Program-made: the position numbers and the translations under genes
The notes under the pieces: generated by a model
Database searches by the model: none
What the model was told of the DNA's origin: nothing
What the model saw: the letters and a program-made list of their open reading frames with translations, nothing else
Source: Actinoplanes sichuanensis
GTDB lineage: Bacteria; Actinomycetota; Actinomycetes; Mycobacteriales; Micromonosporaceae
Reading direction: 5' to 3'
NCBI RefSeq assembly: GCF_033097365.1
Contig: NZ_AP028461.1
Span: forward strand, 434,001-498,000
Length of the DNA: 64,000 nucleotides
Part shown: positions 1-8,341 of the stretch, one piece after another
Layout of the letters: each line of letters opens with the position of its first letter
How positions within the stretch are numbered: the first letter of the stretch is position 1

Positions 1-573
1 GGCTGCACCGAGACCACGCTGATCACGCATGCCGTCGAGCTGTATGGGACCGAGGATCCGGTGCCGATCGGGCGGCCGCTGCCGCACGTGATCGAACGGC
101 TCGATGACGCGGAGCTCCTGATCGGTGGTCCGGCGCTGGCCGACGGCTACCCGGGACATCCATCGGTCACCGCGCAACGGTTCGTGACGATCGGCGGGGA
201 GCGGTTCTTCCGTACCGGAGATCGGGTTCTCACCGCGACCGACGGAGTCCGCACGCATCACGGGCGGGTCGACCGGGAGATCAAGATCCGTGGCATCCGG
301 GTCGACCCGGCCGAGGTGGAGGCCCATCTCACCGGCCATCCGGCGGTGCGGGCGGCGTTCGTCACCGGGGTCACAGTCGCCGGGCGCACCGCACTGACCG
401 CCTTTGTCGTGGCCGGCCGAGGCGAAACCGACCTGCCCGCCCGGATCACCACCCACCTGCGCGGCCTGGTCCCCGCGCATCTGGTTCCCAGTCGTATCCG
501 CGTGGTCGACGAGCTCGCCTACACCGCGAGCGGCAAGGTCGACCGGCGCCTGAGCGAGGAGATGCATCGATGA
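1..573 (+). CDS. Adenylation-domain protein, C-terminal part (5' end outside window)
   Basis: The frame is open from base 1, so only the C-terminal part of this ATP-dependent amino/carboxylic acid activating enzyme is present. NRPS-type core motifs appear in the expected order: GCTETT at the first bases (A5 region), FRTGD near base 205 (A7), GRVDREIKIRG near 265 (A8) and TASGKVDR near 525 (A10), whose lysine contacts the acyl-adenylate in this family. The substrate-pocket residues lie upstream of the window, so specificity cannot be read. The stop codon overlaps the start of the carrier-protein gene (ATGA), which makes that carrier the likely acceptor. It could be a free-standing A domain or the end of a larger NRPS; the absence of a fused carrier domain at its C-terminus favours a free-standing enzyme. 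Confidence 0.85.
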   Translation, partial: GCTETTLITHAVELYGTEDPVPIGRPLPHVIERLDDAELLIGGPALADGYPGHPSVTAQRFVTIGGERFFRTGDRVLTATDGVRTHHGRVDREIKIRGIRVDPAEVEAHLTGHPAVRAAFVTGVTVAGRTALTAFVVAGRGETDLPARITTHLRGLVPAHLVPSRIRVVDELAYTASGKVDRRLSEEMHR

Positions 574-896
574 ACGTCCACCAGGCGACCGCCCTGTTCC
601 GGCGGGTGCTGGAGAACCCGGAGGTCACCGCCGAATCCGACTTCTTCGACGCGGGCGGCGACTCGCTGCTGGCCACCCGGGTGCTCAGCGCCGTCGCCCG
701 CGACCACGGGGTCGAGCTGACCTTCGAGGACTTCCTGCTGGCCCCGACCCCGGCCACGCTGGCCGGCGCGGTTTCGGCCGGCGCCGTCTCCGGTGGTGCG
801 GTTTCGGGCGGCGCGGTTCCGACCGGTGCCGTTTCCGGTGGCGCGGTTTCGGCCGGTGCGGTTTCGGACGGTGCCGTTTCCGGTGGTCCGCGATGA
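570..896 (+). CDS. Stand-alone peptidyl/acyl carrier protein with repetitive tail
   Basis: This 108-residue protein has a carrier-protein fold signature. FFDAGGDSLLATRV contains Ser32, the expected attachment site for 4'-phosphopantetheine. The region from about residue 1 to 65 covers a normal carrier domain. The remaining 40 residues are a run of eight GAVS/GAVP-type pentads encoded by imperfect 15-bp repeats, which is not part of the family. The gene overlaps the adenylation gene before it and the amine oxidase gene after it by four bases each. It probably carries the acyl group activated by the neighbouring adenylating enzyme while other enzymes of the operon act on it. That tethering role is inferred from context. 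Confidence 0.88.
   Translation: MNVHQATALFRRVLENPEVTAESDFFDAGGDSLLATRVLSAVARDHGVELTFEDFLLAPTPATLAGAVSAGAVSGGAVSGGAVPTGAVSGGAVSAGAVSDGAVSGGPR
769..893 (+). repeat. Imperfect 15-bp coding repeats (GAVS pentads) in carrier-protein tail
   Basis: About eight in-frame 15-bp units encode Gly-Ala-Val-Ser/Pro-X pentads at the end of the carrier protein. The units differ mostly at third positions and at the fifth codon. Confidence 0.8.
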
Positions 897-2218
897 GGGT
901 GCTGGTGGTCGGTGCCGGGCTCGGCGGGCTGACCGCGGCCACCGACCTGGACGCCGCCGGGGTCGATGTGGTCGTGCTGGAGGCCCGGGACCGGGTCGGT
1001 GGCCGTACCCACGGCATCGAGGTGGCGTCCGGCACGTGGGCCGACGCGGGTGCCGCCTATCTCGGAGACCGGCACACCGAGCTGCACAAACTGATGGCCG
1101 GTCTGGGACTGTCGGCGACACCCACGGCGATGCGCGGTGGCAGCCGGTTCGCTCTCGGGCACGGGGAGAAGACGCGGGCCGGACGGTTCCCGCCGCTCAA
1201 CGCGGTCGCCCTGGGCGAGATGTTCGATCGGCTCTACGACCTGGTCGACGCGGTGCGCCCGGACGCGCCCTGGCTCACCCCGGACGCCGCCGCACTCGAC
1301 TCCACCACCGCCGCCGCTTGGGCGGCCGCGAACCTGCGCCACCCGGACGCCCGGCTGTTCTTCCCGTTGTTCCTCGGCGAGATGATGGCCGCCGATCCGG
1401 CCGCGATCTCGGTGCTGCACATGGCCCTCTACCTGCGTGCGGGCGGCGGCATCCGATACCTCAACGCGTTCGACGGCGGCGCCCAGCAGGACCGGGTGCT
1501 CGGCGGCGCGCATCAGGTGGCCGAGCGGCTCGCCGGACAGCTCGGTGACCGGGTGTGGCTCGGACATCCGGTCCACGCCGTCGAGCAGGACGGCGGCGGG
1601 GTGTCCGTGCGGTCCGGCGATCGGTGCCTGACCGGCGACGCCGTGATCGTGGCGGTGCCTCCGCTGTTGGCCCAGGCCATCGACTTCCGGCCCGGACTGC
1701 CGGCGCCCCGGGCCACCGCCGCGACCGGGCGGGGCTGCGCGGTGAAGGTGCAACTCGTCTACCCGCGGGCCGCCTGGCACGAGCAGGGTCTGTCCGGCTG
1801 GTCGGTGAGCGCCACCGGCCCGTTGCTGTCGACCGTGGACGACTCACCGCCGGGTGGCGCCGGGGTGCTGACCGGGTTCGTGACCGGCGCCGAGGCGTAC
1901 CGCTTCGCCGGACTGGACCCGGTCGCCCGGGAAGCCGAGGTGCTGTCCCAGGTCGGCGAGCTGTTCCCGCGGCTCGGCCGGCCGGTCGCGGTGCACATCA
2001 CCGACTGGGTGAACGAGCCGTACAGCAAGGGCTGCTACGCGGCCGTGTTCGGGCCCGGCGACTGGACCCGGCTCGGGCCGCACCTGATCGCACCGCACGG
2101 GCGCGTGCACTGGGCCGGCACCGAGACCAGCACCGAGTTCTTCGGGCTGATGGAGGGCGCGATCCGCTCCGGGCACCGGGTGGCCGACGAGGTTCTCTCT
2201 CTTGAAGGGGATAAGTGA
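893..2218 (+). CDS. Flavin-dependent amine oxidase (MAO family)
   Basis: This 441-residue flavoenzyme belongs to the monoamine oxidase superfamily. The N-terminus has the dinucleotide-binding motif GAGLGGLTAA followed by an acidic ribose-binding strand and RVGGRT. The C-terminus has HWAGTETSTEFFGLMEGA, the second FAD-contact motif. KGCYAAVFGPG places a cysteine (Cys381) where mammalian MAO attaches FAD covalently through 8-alpha-S-cysteinyl linkage, so covalent flavin is likely. The family oxidises amines to imines with release of peroxide. Within this operon it may oxidise an amino group of the substrate or of a carrier-bound intermediate, but neither is shown by the sequence. The start overlaps the carrier-protein stop (ATGA). 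Confidence 0.87.
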   Translation: MRVLVVGAGLGGLTAATDLDAAGVDVVVLEARDRVGGRTHGIEVASGTWADAGAAYLGDRHTELHKLMAGLGLSATPTAMRGGSRFALGHGEKTRAGRFPPLNAVALGEMFDRLYDLVDAVRPDAPWLTPDAAALDSTTAAAWAAANLRHPDARLFFPLFLGEMMAADPAAISVLHMALYLRAGGGIRYLNAFDGGAQQDRVLGGAHQVAERLAGQLGDRVWLGHPVHAVEQDGGGVSVRSGDRCLTGDAVIVAVPPLLAQAIDFRPGLPAPRATAATGRGCAVKVQLVYPRAAWHEQGLSGWSVSATGPLLSTVDDSPPGGAGVLTGFVTGAEAYRFAGLDPVAREAEVLSQVGELFPRLGRPVAVHITDWVNEPYSKGCYAAVFGPGDWTRLGPHLIAPHGRVHWAGTETSTEFFGLMEGAIRSGHRVADEVLSLEGDK

Positions 2219-3903
2219 TGTCCGACAGTCCGATCGCTCCGCTCAGCGTCCGCGAACGGTTCATGACCGAACCCGGCCTGGGCGCCGGCAACTTCCTCGA
2301 CCACGCGGTCCGGCTCAACCCGAACCGGGCCGTACCGATGATCTTCACGCACAGTGCCGACCCGCGCGGCCGGGTCACGCTGCGCGGCCACAGCCTGCTC
2401 GATCTGGTGGCGCTGCGCGACAGGTACGCCAAGTGGTACCGGGCCAACGGCGTCCGCCCCGGCGACCCGGTCGGCATCGTGGTCGCCGAGGGCCTGGAAC
2501 CGCTGATCCACTACCTGGCACTGACCGCGCTCGGCGCCATCCCCGCGATGATCAACGACGCGATGCGGCTCGACGTGCTGCTGCGCTACCTGGAGCACGT
2601 GGGCGTGGTCGGGGTGGTCGCCGACGACACCACCCGGATCGCGTCCGCCTACCGGGCCACCCCCGACCGGCGGCCCCGCTTCCTGGCACTGGCCGCCGAG
2701 ATCCAGGCCTTCGACGACGCGGGCGTGGCACTGCCGGACGAGTACCCGTACCGGCACGAGCCCGACGACGTGTGCGCGCTGATCCACTCGTCGGGCACCA
2801 CGGGCACCCCGAAGTCGACGATCCTCGGGCACCGCAGCTTCTGGGACGGCAAACAACCCCGGATGACCAGGTTCCCGGCGGAGCCGTACGACAGACTGAT
2901 GTCGCTGATGCCGCACACGCATGCCGGTGGGCTCAGCTACTTCCTCACCGCGATCCTGCTCGGCCTGCCCACGGTGGTGATGGGCGACTGGCGGCGATCG
3001 GTGGTGGAGCCGGTGATGGAGGTGTTCCAGCCGACCATGCTGGCGTCCTTCCCGCGCACGTTCGTCGAGCTCGCCACCGGTGACCTGCCGGTTCGTGGCG
3101 CGGCGAAGGTGCATTCGTGGTTCAACACCGGCGACTCGGCGCACTACGGGCACATCCGCAGGCTGGTCACGCTGGGGGAGCGGCCGGCCGGTCTGATCGC
3201 GGCCTGGCTGCTACCGCCCGGTCATCAGGCGGGCACGGCGCTGCCCGGGTCGCAGTTCGTCGACGGGCTCGGCTCGTCCGAGATGGGGATGGCGCTGTTC
3301 GGTGGGCTGACCACCCCGGAGACCCCGCGCGACGACAGGTGTGTCGGCAAGGCGCAGGAGGCGGTGATCCGGGCGGCGGTCCTCGACGAGGACGGGGCGG
3401 AGCTCCCCGACGGGACGGTCGGCCTGCTCGGGGTGATCACCCCGTCGCGGACCCCCGGCTATTGGAAGAACCCCCGCCTCACGGCGAGTTTCGAACTCAA
3501 CGGCTTCTGGCTCACCGGCGACGTCGCCCGCCGCGACGGCGACGGCAACTTCTACCACCTCGACCGTACGGTCGACGTCATCGACACCGGCGACGGCCCG
3601 GTCTACAGCCTGCCGCTGGAGGAGGTGCTGATCGCCGACTGCGCCGACCTGGTCCGGGACTGTTCGGTGATCGGCGTACCCGGTCCGGACGGTCACGCGC
3701 AGGTGCCGATCGCCGTCGTGCAGCTGCAGGCGGACGCGGTCCCGGACGGGCTTCTGGAGACCGCCAACAAGGAGCTGTCCGCGGCCGGTCTGGCCACCCT
3801 CGCCGCCGTGGAGGTCGTCGCCGAGTTCCCGCTCGGGCCGACCGGCAAGGTTCTCAAACGGGAACTGCGCACCCGACACGCCACCATGTTCCAGCAGGCA
3901 TGA
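2218..3903 (+). CDS. Stand-alone adenylate-forming ligase (AMP-binding family)
   Basis: This is a full-length (561-residue) class I adenylate-forming enzyme. The phosphate-binding motif SSGTTGTPKS lies near residues 191-200, GSSEMG follows in the middle, LTGDVARRDGDG marks the hinge region, and LGPTGKVLKREL near the end holds the catalytic lysine. The ATG at 2218 is preferred over the GTG at 2215 because the GAAGGGG ribosome-binding site then sits 7 bases upstream. It follows the amine oxidase stop directly and overlaps the next gene by four bases. It is the second adenylating enzyme in the operon. It may activate a different acid, or act as an acyl-CoA ligase. The substrate is unknown. Confidence 0.86.
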   Translation: MSDSPIAPLSVRERFMTEPGLGAGNFLDHAVRLNPNRAVPMIFTHSADPRGRVTLRGHSLLDLVALRDRYAKWYRANGVRPGDPVGIVVAEGLEPLIHYLALTALGAIPAMINDAMRLDVLLRYLEHVGVVGVVADDTTRIASAYRATPDRRPRFLALAAEIQAFDDAGVALPDEYPYRHEPDDVCALIHSSGTTGTPKSTILGHRSFWDGKQPRMTRFPAEPYDRLMSLMPHTHAGGLSYFLTAILLGLPTVVMGDWRRSVVEPVMEVFQPTMLASFPRTFVELATGDLPVRGAAKVHSWFNTGDSAHYGHIRRLVTLGERPAGLIAAWLLPPGHQAGTALPGSQFVDGLGSSEMGMALFGGLTTPETPRDDRCVGKAQEAVIRAAVLDEDGAELPDGTVGLLGVITPSRTPGYWKNPRLTASFELNGFWLTGDVARRDGDGNFYHLDRTVDVIDTGDGPVYSLPLEEVLIADCADLVRDCSVIGVPGPDGHAQVPIAVVQLQADAVPDGLLETANKELSAAGLATLAAVEVVAEFPLGPTGKVLKRELRTRHATMFQQA

Positions 3904-5213
3904 GCGACTACACCTACCCGCGGACCGCGCTGACCGAACCCGACTGGCGTCGCCTGCCCGGCTGGCGGAAGGTCACCCCACAGCAGTGGCGTGACCCCCG
4001 CTGGCAGCGGGTGCACAGCATCCGCGACGCCCGCCGGCTGCACGAAGTCGCCGGAGACCTGCTCGGCGACGACGTCTACGCCGATCTCACCGCCGACCTG
4101 CGCGACAACGCCACCATGTCGACTCTTCTCACCCCGCAGATGCTCAACACCATGGCGGTACGGGACTCGGCGGCGTTCCGTGCCGATCCGGTCCGGCGGT
4201 ACATGCTCCCGCTGGCCGGCGACCGGGATCCGCGGTGGCCGAGTCACCCGTACGCCCAGCGGGACTCCCTGCACGAGGCCGAGATGTGGGTGACCGAGGG
4301 CCTGGTGCACCGCTATCCGACGAAGGTACTGGCCGAGCTGGTCACCACCTGCCCGCAGTACTGCGGCCACTGCACCCGGATGGACCTGGTCGGCCAGTCC
4401 ACCCCGCAGGTGACGAAGGCCAGGTTCGCGCTGCGCTCCGGCAACCGCCAGGAGCTGATGCTCGACTACCTGAAACGCCACCCGTCCGTCCGGGACGTGG
4501 TGGTCTCCGGCGGCGACGTGGCGAACCTGCCGTGGCCCCAACTGGAACATTTCGTCACCCAGCTGCTCGACCTGGACTCGATCCGCGACATCAGGCTGGC
4601 CAGCAAGGCGGTGATCGGCCTGCCCCAGCACTGGTTGCAACCGGAGGTGGTGACCGGGATGACCAGGCTGGCCACCCTGGCCGCCGACCGTGGTGTGAAC
4701 CTGGCCGTACACACCCACGCCAACCACGCCGCGTCGATCACCCCGCTGGTGGCCGAGGCGACCCGGGCGCTGCTGCGAGCCGGCGTCCGCGACGTCCGCA
4801 ACCAGGGCGTCCTGATGGCCGGCGTGAACGACGACCGGGCCTCGTTGCTGGACCTGTGTTTCGCCCTGCACGGCGAGGCCGGCATCACCCCGTACTACTT
4901 CTACATGTGCGACATGATCCCGAACGCCGAACACTGGCGGATCCCACTGCACCGGGCCCAGGCCCTACAGGACGCCATCATGGGCCACCTCCCCGGCTAC
5001 GCCACCCCACGCATCGTCTGCGACGTCCCGTACGTCGGCAAACGCTGGGTCCACCAGCCCACCGCCTACGACCGCGAGCGAGGGATCTCCCACTGGACGA
5101 AGCCCTACACCGACACCGGCGCACGCTACCCCTTCTACGACCCGATCAGCTCCCTACCGCCCGCGGGTCAGACCTGGTGGCGCACGGCGGGTTCGGTCGT
5201 TGAGAGGGAGTGA
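3900..5213 (+). CDS. KamA-family radical SAM 2,3-aminomutase (lysine-type residues)
   Basis: This 437-residue protein matches the lysine 2,3-aminomutase family. The radical SAM cluster motif is Cys151-xxx-Cys155-xx-Cys158, preceded by YPTKVL as in KamA. DVPYVGKRW places Lys381 at the PLP Schiff-base position. Two aspartates, Asp338 (in YMCDM) and Asp375 (in VCDVP), align by eye with the residues that bind the side-chain amino group in clostridial lysine 2,3-aminomutase; glutamate-type enzymes lack this pair. A basic amino acid substrate such as lysine is therefore predicted. The ATG at 3900 is chosen because it overlaps the ligase stop (ATGA) and gives a normal length. In the operon it would supply a beta-amino acid for activation and carrier loading. 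This is an inference. Confidence 0.88.
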   Translation: MSDYTYPRTALTEPDWRRLPGWRKVTPQQWRDPRWQRVHSIRDARRLHEVAGDLLGDDVYADLTADLRDNATMSTLLTPQMLNTMAVRDSAAFRADPVRRYMLPLAGDRDPRWPSHPYAQRDSLHEAEMWVTEGLVHRYPTKVLAELVTTCPQYCGHCTRMDLVGQSTPQVTKARFALRSGNRQELMLDYLKRHPSVRDVVVSGGDVANLPWPQLEHFVTQLLDLDSIRDIRLASKAVIGLPQHWLQPEVVTGMTRLATLAADRGVNLAVHTHANHAASITPLVAEATRALLRAGVRDVRNQGVLMAGVNDDRASLLDLCFALHGEAGITPYYFYMCDMIPNAEHWRIPLHRAQALQDAIMGHLPGYATPRIVCDVPYVGKRWVHQPTAYDRERGISHWTKPYTDTGARYPFYDPISSLPPAGQTWWRTAGSVVERE

Positions 5214-5227
5214 CAGCGCGGCGCACA

Positions 5228-5256
5228 TTTTCGGACGGGATGTCGCATAGTAGGGT
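5228..5256 (+). promoter_or_regulatory. Candidate promoter for a leaderless TRAP transporter transcript
   Basis: A -35-like TTTTCG (5228-5233) and a -10-like TAGGGT (5251-5256) are 17 bases apart. The predicted transcription start falls about 7 bases further on, essentially at the ATG at 5264. This supports that start codon and suggests a leaderless message. Confidence 0.45.
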
Positions 5257-5263
5257 CCGATTC

Positions 5264-7312
5264 ATGGGCGATGATCGATCTTCGGCGGGGAGTGCCAAGG
5301 CCCTGGCCGAGGCTGAGGCCGGGGCGCCCGCCGTGCACTACGACGATGAGGAACGGCCCGCCCGGGTGCTCGGCGGGCGGGTCGGCGGGCTGGTGTCGAC
5401 CGTCGCGTTCGGGGTGGCCCTGCTGGTGCTGTGGCAGGTGTTCCGGCCGTTGGCACAGGGCAGCCAGTACTACCTGATCGTCTTTCTCGCCCTCACCCTT
5501 CCGCTCGTCTTCCTGGCGTACAAATCGGGGTGGGGTAAAGGCCGGGAGACGCCCACCGTCGGTGACGGGGTTCTCGCCGCCGCCGCACTGGTCGTCTGCC
5601 TCTATCCGCTCAATCCGTTCGACGGCGGCTACAACGGGTTCCTGCTGCGGCAGGGCCTTCTCGAACCGGTCGACGTCGTCTTCGGCGCGGTGCTGCTGAT
5701 CCTGCTGATCGAGGCCTGCCGGCGCACCACCGGCTGGGCGCTGCCGGTGGTCTGTCTGCTCTTCCTCGGGTACGCCTACTACGGCGGCCTGCTGCCGCAG
5801 ACCTGGCCGATCGCGCACGCGGGCCTGGACTTCGCGCAGATCGTCGACGCTCTCTACAATTCCGGCAGCGGCTTCTACGGCACTCCGCTCGATGTCGCGG
5901 CCACCTACATCGTGCTGTTCACCATTTACGGCGCGGTTCTCGACCTGTCCGGGGCGAGCCGATTCTTCGTCGACCTTTCGGTCGCCGCCTTCCGGCGGTC
6001 GCGCAGCGCGGCGGGACGCACCGCGGTCGCCGCCGGGTTTCTTCTGGGCACGGTCTCCGGTTCGGGTACGGCCACCGCCGTCAGTGTCGGCGCGGTCACC
6101 TGGCCGATGCTCCGCCGCGCCGGATATCCGCCGGAGCAGGCCGGTGGCATGCTGGCCGCGGCCGGGGTCGGCGCGATCCTGTCCCCACCGACGCTGGGTG
6201 CGGCCGCGTTCATCGTCGCCGAGTACCTGAACGTCTCCTACCTGACCGTTCTCGGCTGGGCGATGATCCCGACGGTCCTCTACTACCTGGGCATCCTGCT
6301 GGCCGTCGAGATCGACGTGCGGCGGTTCGCGGTCCGCGCCGTGGACGCCCCGCAGACCGGCGCATGGCGGCTGCTGACCCGGTTCGGCTACCACTTCTCG
6401 TCGCTGATCGTCATCGTCGTGCTGTTGGCGCTGGGCCAGAGCGCCACCCGTTCGGTGGTGTACGCGACGATCCTGGCCGGTGTGCTGTCCTTTCTGGACC
6501 GGAGTACCCGTCTCACCCCACCCCGGATCTTCGCGGCGCTGGCGGCCGGGGTGCGCGGGGTGCTCCCGGTCGTCGCCGTCTGCGCCGCGGCGGGCGTGAT
6601 CACCGCGACCACCACGAAGACCGGCCTCGGTGCGCAACTCGCGTCGTTGCTGGTCAACGGGGCGAAGGCGATCACCGACGAGCCGGCCGCGGTGCTCGCG
6701 CTGACCGCGGTGCTGGCCGCGTTCGCGCTGGCGCTGCTCGGGCTGGCGGTGCCGGTGACGGCGAGTTTCATCATCGGCTGGGTGATCATCGGGCCGGCGC
6801 TGCTGACGCTCGGGGTGCCGGCGCCCGCCGCGGCCATGTTCGTCTTCTACTACTCGGTGTTGTCCGAGGTCACGCCGCCGACCGCGCTGGCCGCCGTCGG
6901 AGCGAGCGCGATCACCGGCGGCCGGACGATCCCGACCATGTGGCAGGCGCTGAAGTACGCGCTGCCCGCGTTCCTGGCACCGCTCGCGTTCGTCCTCACC
7001 TCGAACGGGGAGCATCTGCTCGCCCGCGGGTCGTTCGTCGGCATCGTGTGGACGACCGTGGTCGCCGGGCTCGCGGTGCTCGGGCTGGCCATCGCCACCG
7101 GCGGATGGGTCCCGGGAGTGGGGCCGGCCGGGCGGGTGAGCCGGGTGGCGGCGGGGCTCTCCGGGCTGCTGCTGCTCTACCTGGAGACGGCCAGCATCAT
7201 CGCCGGCTTGACCACGCTGCTGGTAGCCGTACTCCTCAGTGGTTTTGAAAGAAGACGCCGGCCCGCGGAGGCCGCGCCCGCTCCGGAAAGCCGGACCCAG
7301 ACCCCCCTTTGA
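5264..7312 (+). CDS. TRAP transporter permease, fused small and large membrane subunits
   Basis: This 682-residue, strongly hydrophobic protein looks like the fused DctQ-DctM (4TM/12TM) permease found in TAXI-type TRAP transporters. Membrane segments begin near residue 35. Mid-protein features include FLLGTVSGSGTATAVSVGAVTWPMLRRAGY and ILSPPTLGAAAF, which are characteristic of the DctM/4TM-12TM family. A GTG at 5210 would also be in frame and would overlap the aminomutase gene. The ATG at 5264 is preferred because a promoter-like element lies immediately before it and the extra residues are not hydrophobic or family-like. With the binding lipoprotein downstream it forms a sodium- or proton-driven importer for an unknown organic acid. 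Confidence 0.85.
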   Translation: MGDDRSSAGSAKALAEAEAGAPAVHYDDEERPARVLGGRVGGLVSTVAFGVALLVLWQVFRPLAQGSQYYLIVFLALTLPLVFLAYKSGWGKGRETPTVGDGVLAAAALVVCLYPLNPFDGGYNGFLLRQGLLEPVDVVFGAVLLILLIEACRRTTGWALPVVCLLFLGYAYYGGLLPQTWPIAHAGLDFAQIVDALYNSGSGFYGTPLDVAATYIVLFTIYGAVLDLSGASRFFVDLSVAAFRRSRSAAGRTAVAAGFLLGTVSGSGTATAVSVGAVTWPMLRRAGYPPEQAGGMLAAAGVGAILSPPTLGAAAFIVAEYLNVSYLTVLGWAMIPTVLYYLGILLAVEIDVRRFAVRAVDAPQTGAWRLLTRFGYHFSSLIVIVVLLALGQSATRSVVYATILAGVLSFLDRSTRLTPPRIFAALAAGVRGVLPVVAVCAAAGVITATTTKTGLGAQLASLLVNGAKAITDEPAAVLALTAVLAAFALALLGLAVPVTASFIIGWVIIGPALLTLGVPAPAAAMFVFYYSVLSEVTPPTALAAVGASAITGGRTIPTMWQALKYALPAFLAPLAFVLTSNGEHLLARGSFVGIVWTTVVAGLAVLGLAIATGGWVPGVGPAGRVSRVAAGLSGLLLLYLETASIIAGLTTLLVAVLLSGFERRRRPAEAAPAPESRTQTPL

Positions 7313-7351
7313 AGTTCGCCCCTTGCCGTACCACCCTCCTGAAGGAGAAGC

Positions 7352-8341
7352 ATGAGACGAATAGTGGGAATCGCGCTGGTCAGCACGCTCGCGGCCGCCA
7401 CCGCGGCGTGCGGCGGCCGGCAGGACACCGCCAGCACCGACACCGGCGGCGCCGTCACCTGTGAGGTGGCGCAGGCCACCCGGGTCGGCATCGCCACCGG
7501 TAACGCCATCGGCGTCTACTTCGCCCTCGGCAACGCGCTCGCTGAACAGGTCAACTCGGCCGGGAAGAACGTCCAGGCCACCGCGGCCGAGACGGGCGCG
7601 TCGGTGCAGAACATCCAGCAGCTGGTCGCCGGCACCTACGACGTGGCGTTCTCGTTGGCCGACACCGCCGCCGACGCGGTGAACGGCACCGGCAGTTTCA
7701 CCGCGAAACAGCCGGTGCAGGCGCTCAGCCGGATCCACACCAACTACACGCAGGTGATCGTCCGCAAGGAGGCGGGCATCAAAGACGTCGCCGGGATGAA
7801 GGGTAAGCGGATCTCGACCGGCTCCCCGAAATCCGGCACCGAGGTCATCGCCAACCGGGTGCTGAAGGCGGCCGGCCTCGCCGAGACCGACGTGCAGGCG
7901 CAGAAACTGGACCTGACGAAGACCGTCGACGGGATGAAGGAGGGCACCATCGACGCCCTGTTCTTCTCCGGCGGCCTGCCCACCCCGGGCATCACCGACC
8001 TGCTCACCACCAGTGCCGACAAGGTCGAGTTCCTGGACATCTCGCCGCTGCTGCCGGAGATGCAGAAGATCAACGAGGTCTACCAGGAGGGGGTCATCCC
8101 GGCCGCCGTCTACCAGGCCCCGGCCGACGTGAAGACGATCGTGGTCCCGAACGTGCTGCTCGTCCGGGAGAACCTCGACCCGAACGTGGCGTGCGTGCTG
8201 ACCAAGACGCTCTTCGAACGGAGGACACAACTGGAGCAGGCCAACGCGGCGGCCAAGGAGATCAGCCTCGACACCGCCCGTGACACCAGCCCGGTCACGA
8301 TCCACCGGGGCGCCGCGAAGGCACTCGACGACCTGAAGTAG
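7352..8341 (+). CDS. TAXI-family TRAP transporter solute-binding lipoprotein
   Basis: This 329-residue protein has a lipoprotein signal with the lipobox TAAC (Cys20) and then a TAXI-type binding domain. IGIATGNAIGVYF-like sequence near the mature N-terminus, the NIQQLVAGTYDVAFSLADTAADA segment and KGKRISTGSPKSGTEV are typical of the family. A good ribosome-binding site (GAAGGAGA) precedes the ATG. It lies 39 bases behind the fused permease and is its extracytoplasmic partner. TAXI proteins of known specificity often bind glutamate-like or other small carboxylates, but the ligand here cannot be read from sequence. An intrinsic terminator follows at once, so the two genes form a complete unit. 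Confidence 0.88.
   Translation: MRRIVGIALVSTLAAATAACGGRQDTASTDTGGAVTCEVAQATRVGIATGNAIGVYFALGNALAEQVNSAGKNVQATAAETGASVQNIQQLVAGTYDVAFSLADTAADAVNGTGSFTAKQPVQALSRIHTNYTQVIVRKEAGIKDVAGMKGKRISTGSPKSGTEVIANRVLKAAGLAETDVQAQKLDLTKTVDGMKEGTIDALFFSGGLPTPGITDLLTTSADKVEFLDISPLLPEMQKINEVYQEGVIPAAVYQAPADVKTIVVPNVLLVRENLDPNVACVLTKTLFERRTQLEQANAAAKEISLDTARDTSPVTIHRGAAKALDDLK

Follow-up and report, generated by a model that had tools for sequence, protein, structure and literature searches.

The ligases CreM, AvaA6, CmaA6, and Tri17 use nitrite, according to the sections of PMC11705231 available, which also give assays of Tri17 on pyrrolidines and piperidines and the stable N-N products that it yields. Most enzymes of this kind AMPylate nitrous acid (available part of PMC10777205), and the named known members act on aromatic amines or hydrazones (excerpted part of a review). 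Among 134 ava-like clusters, 72 are without CreE/CreD-type genes in the part of PMC10777205 available, and alanosine may rely on nondedicated nitrate and nitrite reductases (partial text of PMC12154649, a preprint). In the azaserine pathway, hydrazinoacetate is oxidized on a carrier (partial text of PMC10445470). Here we describe a gene cluster of Actinoplanes sichuanensis whose core, judged from comparative sequence analysis, may make a beta-lysine-derived unit through carrier-bound oxidation and a nitrite-dependent step, probably one of N-N formation; we put the probability of this reading at roughly 0.6.

The window, meaning the whole stretch of DNA analyzed (64,000 nucleotides), is C1:434001-498000 of a one-contig, 12.14-Mb genome (C1 is NZ_AP028461.1), and the sequence upstream was read as L003 (C1:415001-434900). 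All five genes named in the initial annotation are present on the + strand (Table 1), and their four junctions are 4-base stop/start overlaps (ATGA, ATGA, GTGA, and ATGA). The A-domain gene starts 750 bases left of window base 1, which is a mere window edge, and the unit starts ~11 kb further left. The five genes are the end of a longer unit, with the cluster core at C1:422741-439213 and window positions 1 to 5213 as its right end. The initial annotation had asked whether condensation genes or an NRPS end lie upstream; a Pfam scan of eight proteins encoded there detected neither a condensation domain nor a large NRPS, and an MFS transport gene was found. Directly after the KamA gene (window 5210-8341) lie genes for a fused TRAP transporter permease and for a TAXI-like binding protein, which were rejected as unit members; they are present in only 2 of 40 clusters (this one and L005).

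Table 1. Features of the cluster, in order along the contig (positions in L003 coordinates or, where marked, in the window)
Feature	Position	Strand	Basis or remark
PaaI-like thioesterase	ends L003:8211, in-frame ATG at 7741	+	62% identity to L079
SARP regulator	L003:8220-10736	+	
Third ATP-grasp-like protein, weak match	L003:10717-11907	-	NCBIfam match below cut-off; no Pfam match at default cut-off
DdaF-like ATP-grasp	L003:11907-13163	-	
RimK-like ATP-grasp	L003:13272-14249		NCBIfam match below cut-off; no Pfam match at default cut-off
PaaK-like AMP ligase	L003:14246-15469		Upstream of MFS
MFS protein	L003:15466-16704		Upstream of SDR-MDMPI
SDR fused to MDMPI domain	L003:16701-18254		Upstream of A domain
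Stand-alone A domain, C-terminal part	window 1..573	+	AMP-binding_C; whole gene L003:18251-19573 = C1:433251-434573
Free carrier protein	window 570..896	+	PP-binding; phosphopantetheine motif GGDS
Flavin amine oxidase, monoamine oxidase type	window 893..2218	+	Amino_oxidase; covalent-flavin cysteine
AMP-forming ligase, predicted nitrite-using diazotase/N-nitrosylase branch	window 2215..3903	+	AMP-binding; NCBIfam, structure matches, tree, motif
KamA-type radical SAM enzyme, probably lysine 2,3-aminomutase	window 3900..5213	+	Alignment with 2a5h, motifs

Related clusters were collected from a KamA scan (best 80 of >580 loci taken, 18 of these 80 carrying the ligase core) and from ligase searches, in which the ligase was present in 2/396 genomes sampled across the phylum, in 17/354 from the own family (a count that takes in this genome), and in 11/297 from the family to which G006 belongs. 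The final set comprised 40 clusters (the KamA-scan clusters, 21 further ones, and our own), with G459, G729, G736, and G751 omitted as apparent duplicates and the ligase matches in G002, G003, and G006 already in the set. These clusters were picked for having the ligase or KamA, and the stretches read per cluster were unequal (10 to 40 kb), so absences are soft. The carrier, oxidase, and ligase genes stand in the same order in 40/40 clusters, a recurrence beyond chance. The original view that the five genes are one unit is supported. An A domain is present in 39/40 (G832 begins at a contig end), and KamA lies beside the carrier-oxidase-ligase core in 31/40. Accessory genes encode an SDR (37/40), a RimK-like ATP-grasp (35/40), a PaaI-like protein (33/40), a DdaF-like ATP-grasp (7/40), and the third ATP-grasp (4/40); the MDMPI domain occurs in 8/40. 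Lysine catabolism was judged an unlikely role because of the carrier, the SARP regulator, the MFS protein, and the sporadic spread seen across the phylum.

The SDR was considered as an obligatory imine reductase and set aside as not part of the minimal core, being missing in G716, G210, and L014. The same three clusters have the core without RimK-like, DdaF-like, or third ATP-grasp ligases, and in G716 (L112, L113) and G210 (L132, L133) the core is followed by large polyketide synthase-like genes, that of G716 encoding a reducing type I enzyme. A DUF3050 protein is encoded in 5/40 clusters, after KamA in L007 (L007:11342-12124) and directly after the ligase in G544, G545, G546, and G547, which are without KamA; none of the five carries a NarK-like gene.

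Pfam gives no match for the KamA-type protein when run with its default cut-off, and the protein falls below the curated cut-off of every NCBIfam model, the best being lysine 2,3-aminomutase TIGR03820 (AblA; 162.8 versus 525.4 bits). Its residues 19-383 align with the solved lysine 2,3-aminomutase 2a5h (E 1.5e-37), and both acidic residues of the 2a5h lysine pocket, aspartates that we take to bind the lysine side chain, are retained. The CxxxCxxC cluster motif is present in 37/37 homologues. The enzyme is thus probably a lysine 2,3-aminomutase. Its closest match among the best 80 of >580 KamA loci is from Actinoplanes philippinensis (L005; 88%), and it is a second copy in its own genome, which has another KamA at C1:1159955, 65% identical to that of the cluster.

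The A-domain specificity code, its positions located by motif with GrsA numbering, reads DTEDIGTLIK, and all 45 homologues (39 clusters plus six Rhodococcus and mycobacterial loci) fit DTE[DN][VI]GT[LM][IV]K, with N in three. As a beta-lysine yardstick we used L037 (Streptomyces cinnamoneus JCM 4633), in which a viomycin phosphotransferase scores above its curated cut-off (485 versus 400 bits); activation of beta-lysine by its A domain is taken from this viomycin-type context. That A domain adjoins KamA and has the code DTEDVGTMVK, identical to ours at 7/10 positions and conservative at the other 3, with an overall identity of 38%. In 9/40 clusters KamA lies outside the stretch read; the code is unchanged there, and all nine genomes carry KamA elsewhere. 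Because the code so nearly matches that of L037 and stays constant where KamA is not adjacent but elsewhere in the genome, beta-lysine is the likely unit loaded, which supports the suggestion made at the outset. The A domain of our cluster is several dozen residues shorter between the first motifs than that of L037 (fewer are missing relative to L006), which could affect function.

The near-identical code and the adjacent KamA, both as in L037, would also suit a simple beta-lysine peptide akin to viomycin or streptothricin. In such a pathway beta-lysine would be handed over unmodified, the oxidase and second ligase would serve other steps, and the ATP-grasp ligases would be the likely amide formers. 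We regard this as very improbable, given that the scan of the eight upstream proteins found no condensation domain and that the oxidase and ligase occur in every one of the 40 clusters, whereas the ATP-grasp ligases vary (35, 7, and 4 of 40).

The carrier motif is GGDS or GGNS in 46/46 homologues. The amine oxidase matches monoamine oxidases along its full length and has a covalent-flavin cysteine (YSKGCY versus SGGCY in MAO-A); this FAD-holding cysteine is found in 46/46 homologues, in agreement with the covalent flavin predicted initially. One aromatic-cage tyrosine is replaced by leucine in 45/46 (the 45 listed with the pattern), the cage and cysteine residues being assigned the roles that they have in MAO. 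Six loci of Rhodococcus and mycobacteria (L032, L042, L048, L071, L077, and L083) have the A domain, carrier, oxidase, and KamA in the same order without the ligase, and L032 has genes for glycosyltransferase and polysaccharide deacetylase on the upstream side. Might such loci make the oxidized beta-lysine unit minus the nitrite step?

For the second ligase, the best NCBIfam family is diazotase AvaA6 (338 bits), followed by acyl-CoA ligase (162 bits). The score of 338 is below the curated (equivalog) AvaA6 cut-off of 975 bits, and by this measure the ligase is no AvaA6 equivalent, though AvaA6 is its best family. Among solved structures it matches 8ztz/9ijf (280 bits), 9xb8/9xbs (273 bits), and 9bq0 and 8tf7 (250 bits), then FadD5 (92 bits); by entry title, 8ztz/9ijf are the ATP-dependent diazotase CmaA6 and 9bq0/8tf7 are Tri17 (N-nitrosylase), with 9xb8 untitled. 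The predicted structure model of the ligase was poor and was used solely for reading entry titles. Identity is 36.8% to Tri17 (514 columns), 35.8% to CmaA6 (525 columns), and 37.0% to 9xb8 (516 columns). A 13-row tree placed six ligases of the cluster family with Tri17, CmaA6, and 9xb8 in one branch (support, 100/100), in which only CmaA6 and Tri17 are named nitrite-using members; on the other side were FadD5, an acyl ligase from the own genome, and two A domains. ATP-site motifs are conserved. A further motif, GD[AS][AV]HxxH[IV][RK], is present in 39/40 cluster ligases (A for G allowed; G716 deviates at the last residue) and in the three solved relatives, and is absent from FadD5 and from all 45 A domains (0/45). 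By sequence, the second ligase belongs to the nitrite-using diazotase/N-nitrosylase branch, apart from the ordinary acyl ligases.

In an ordinary two-ligase pathway nitrite would have no role, and the second ligase would take a carboxylic acid as the substrate that it activates and then loads or couples. The shared superfamily and AMP-binding domain speak for this, as does the identity with FadD5 (31.7% across 344 compared columns). The fully supported branch with CmaA6 and Tri17, the bit-score gap (250-280 versus 92), the motif common to these relatives, and nitrate genes in 10/40 clusters all argue against such a pathway, which we consider improbable. The initial annotation had proposed an oxidized beta-amino acid built with two adenylating enzymes on a free carrier: oxidation together with the free carrier is supported, and the second ligase as another carrier-loading enzyme is not, in view of its nitrite-using branch and of the nitrate genes in sister clusters.

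Those nitrate genes include a NarK-like nitrate/nitrite transporter in 10/40 clusters (L009, L011, L018, L079, G485, G789, G985, G986, G1005, and G1056), joined in L009, L011, G485, G789, and G986 by genes for a NasC-like nitrate reductase and a NasB-like FAD/[2Fe-2S] protein (that of L011, when checked, had no sirohaem domain). The NasC and NarK matches are under curated cut-offs (NasC, 752 versus 1100 bits). In seven of the ten NarK clusters the nitrate genes sit between PaaI and a second PaaK-like gene; the L011 stretch ends before the second PaaK-like position, and L009 and G485 are arranged otherwise. NarK/NasC/NasB-type genes were found in none of 62 control loci with KamA present and the ligase absent. 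The stretches read of 30/40 clusters, our own included, contain no nitrate gene. NasC-like 35% matches in L068 and L073 were judged to be a different molybdoenzyme and were excluded from the count.

In the A. sichuanensis genome itself, a NasC gene (C1:6142797) neighbors a NirB-type match. The genomes of L009, G789, and G986 each hold a second NasC within 8 kb of a NirB-type match, and the cluster NasC is not so placed; in the genomes of L011 and G485, searched at thresholds of 1e-60 and 1e-200, respectively, no match other than the cluster NasC appeared. The sole sirohaem-domain matches in these last two genomes are a two-domain protein of ~580 residues, found in 24/24 genomes searched, which is probably a sulfite reductase, possibly able to reduce nitrite. 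The nitrite reductase search covered the sirohaem type, and every sirohaem reductase match lay more than 140 kb from the cluster NasC genes or on a different contig from them. In a tree, a branch with support of 100/99 has the five cluster NasC proteins on one side and, on the other, 13 housekeeping copies, each within 8 kb of a NirB-type match; three genomes supply both copies, and the NasC proteins of eight other cluster genomes are outside the tree. The cluster copies stand apart from the NirB-linked housekeeping copies, so a nitrate reductase has passed down together with this type of cluster in two families, and its useful product seems to be nitrite. A check of the own genome for a CreD-type lyase by the Lyase_1 domain gave four matches, and the two that were read resemble PcaB and PurB.

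Sequence comparison supports the assignment of enzyme families and of the beta-lysine code, as well as the conservation of the core and the presence of nitrate reduction genes in sister clusters. We infer every reaction, the amine attacked, the step order, and the product as follows. KamA would convert lysine to beta-lysine, which the A domain would adenylate and load onto the free carrier. The covalent-flavin oxidase would then oxidize one amine of carrier-bound beta-lysine. The likeliest target is the amine at the C6 end, which would give an aldehyde able to close with the C3 amine into a five-membered cyclic imine. The second ligase would spend ATP on activating nitrite, not a carboxylate, and pass NO+ to a nitrogen of the beta-lysine unit. 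The outcome would be a nitrogen-nitrogen group, either N-nitroso, diazo, or a ring formed from it, with an N-nitrosated cyclic amine or imine as one guess of several. The PaaI-type thioesterase may free the acid, which the PaaK-like and ATP-grasp ligases would couple to further units, and the MFS protein and SARP would export the product and regulate the cluster, respectively. A nitrite-dependent step in the pathway is highly probable; an N-N bond in the product is rather less sure, though still favored.

Aliphatic diazonium ions readily lose N2, which favors another outcome, in which the ligase uses nitrite to diazotize one amine of the beta-lysine unit; departure of the diazonium as N2 would leave an alkene, alcohol, or carbocycle and a final product without an N-N bond. 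The closely related ligases CmaA6 and AvaA6 work in a diazotization-dependent pathway of this kind (available parts of PMC10777205 and PMC11705231). Such deamination nevertheless seems unlikely: no AvaA7-like partner was recognized among the cluster proteins as identified here, and Tri17, at a like distance from the ligase, forms stable N-N products in the text available.

Retaining the N-N group as the preferred outcome, we see about an even chance that these clusters are a sporadic, widely spread, undescribed actinobacterial family whose product, built from oxidized beta-lysine on a carrier, is aliphatic and has an N-N bond (as an N-nitroso, diazo, or N-N heterocyclic compound). Part of the family would use a dedicated, coevolved nitrate transporter and reductase for nitrite, a route other than CreE/CreD, and the unit would be joined by varied ATP-grasp ligases or, in two species, made beside polyketide synthase genes. 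Reactive drug leads are found among N-N natural products, and for a ligase of this branch an aliphatic amine would be a novel substrate. If the proposal is true, the chemistry of ligases known on aromatic amines and hydrazones would be extended by a conserved aliphatic route linked to nitrate reduction, and such clusters could be found by the carrier-oxidase-ligase core and by nitrate reductases apart from nitrite reductase. The pathway is directly testable because the substrate (beta-lysine), the cosubstrate (nitrite), and the partner proteins are all predicted.

An exact match to a known cluster, which the initial annotation had counted as grounds against its proposal, did not appear: searches of open-licence papers gave no published match to the cluster or its core, and the letters of the A-domain code had no match in papers. 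Each part is of a known kind; what appears new is the way that they are combined, along with the nitrate reductase bound to the cluster. The viomycin-type module resembles our cluster in KamA, A-domain code, and carrier; our cluster differs in the added amine oxidase and predicted nitrite-type ligase, in having no condensation domain among the upstream proteins scanned, and in an A domain only 38% identical. Negamycin, likened here by description and not by sequence, also brings together beta-lysine genes, N-N chemistry, and ATP-grasp ligases, but uses a KinJ-type haem enzyme (partial text of PMC12154649), whereas our candidate is an AMP-forming ligase. Monoamine oxidases and putrescine oxidase share the full-length match and covalent-flavin cysteine with our oxidase, which differs from them as a fixed partner of a free carrier with a cage tyrosine replaced by leucine. 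Our ligase branches with CmaA6 and Tri17 at 36-37% identity and shares their motif, and unlike in the clusters of CreM, AvaA6, CmaA6, and Tri17 it stands beside a putative beta-lysine A domain, a free carrier, an amine oxidase, and KamA, with no aromatic-amine genes recognized. The nitrite source also differs: published clusters of the CreM/AvaA6 kind use CreE/CreD or no dedicated source (available part of PMC10777205), whereas part of our cluster family carries nitrate reductase genes of its own.
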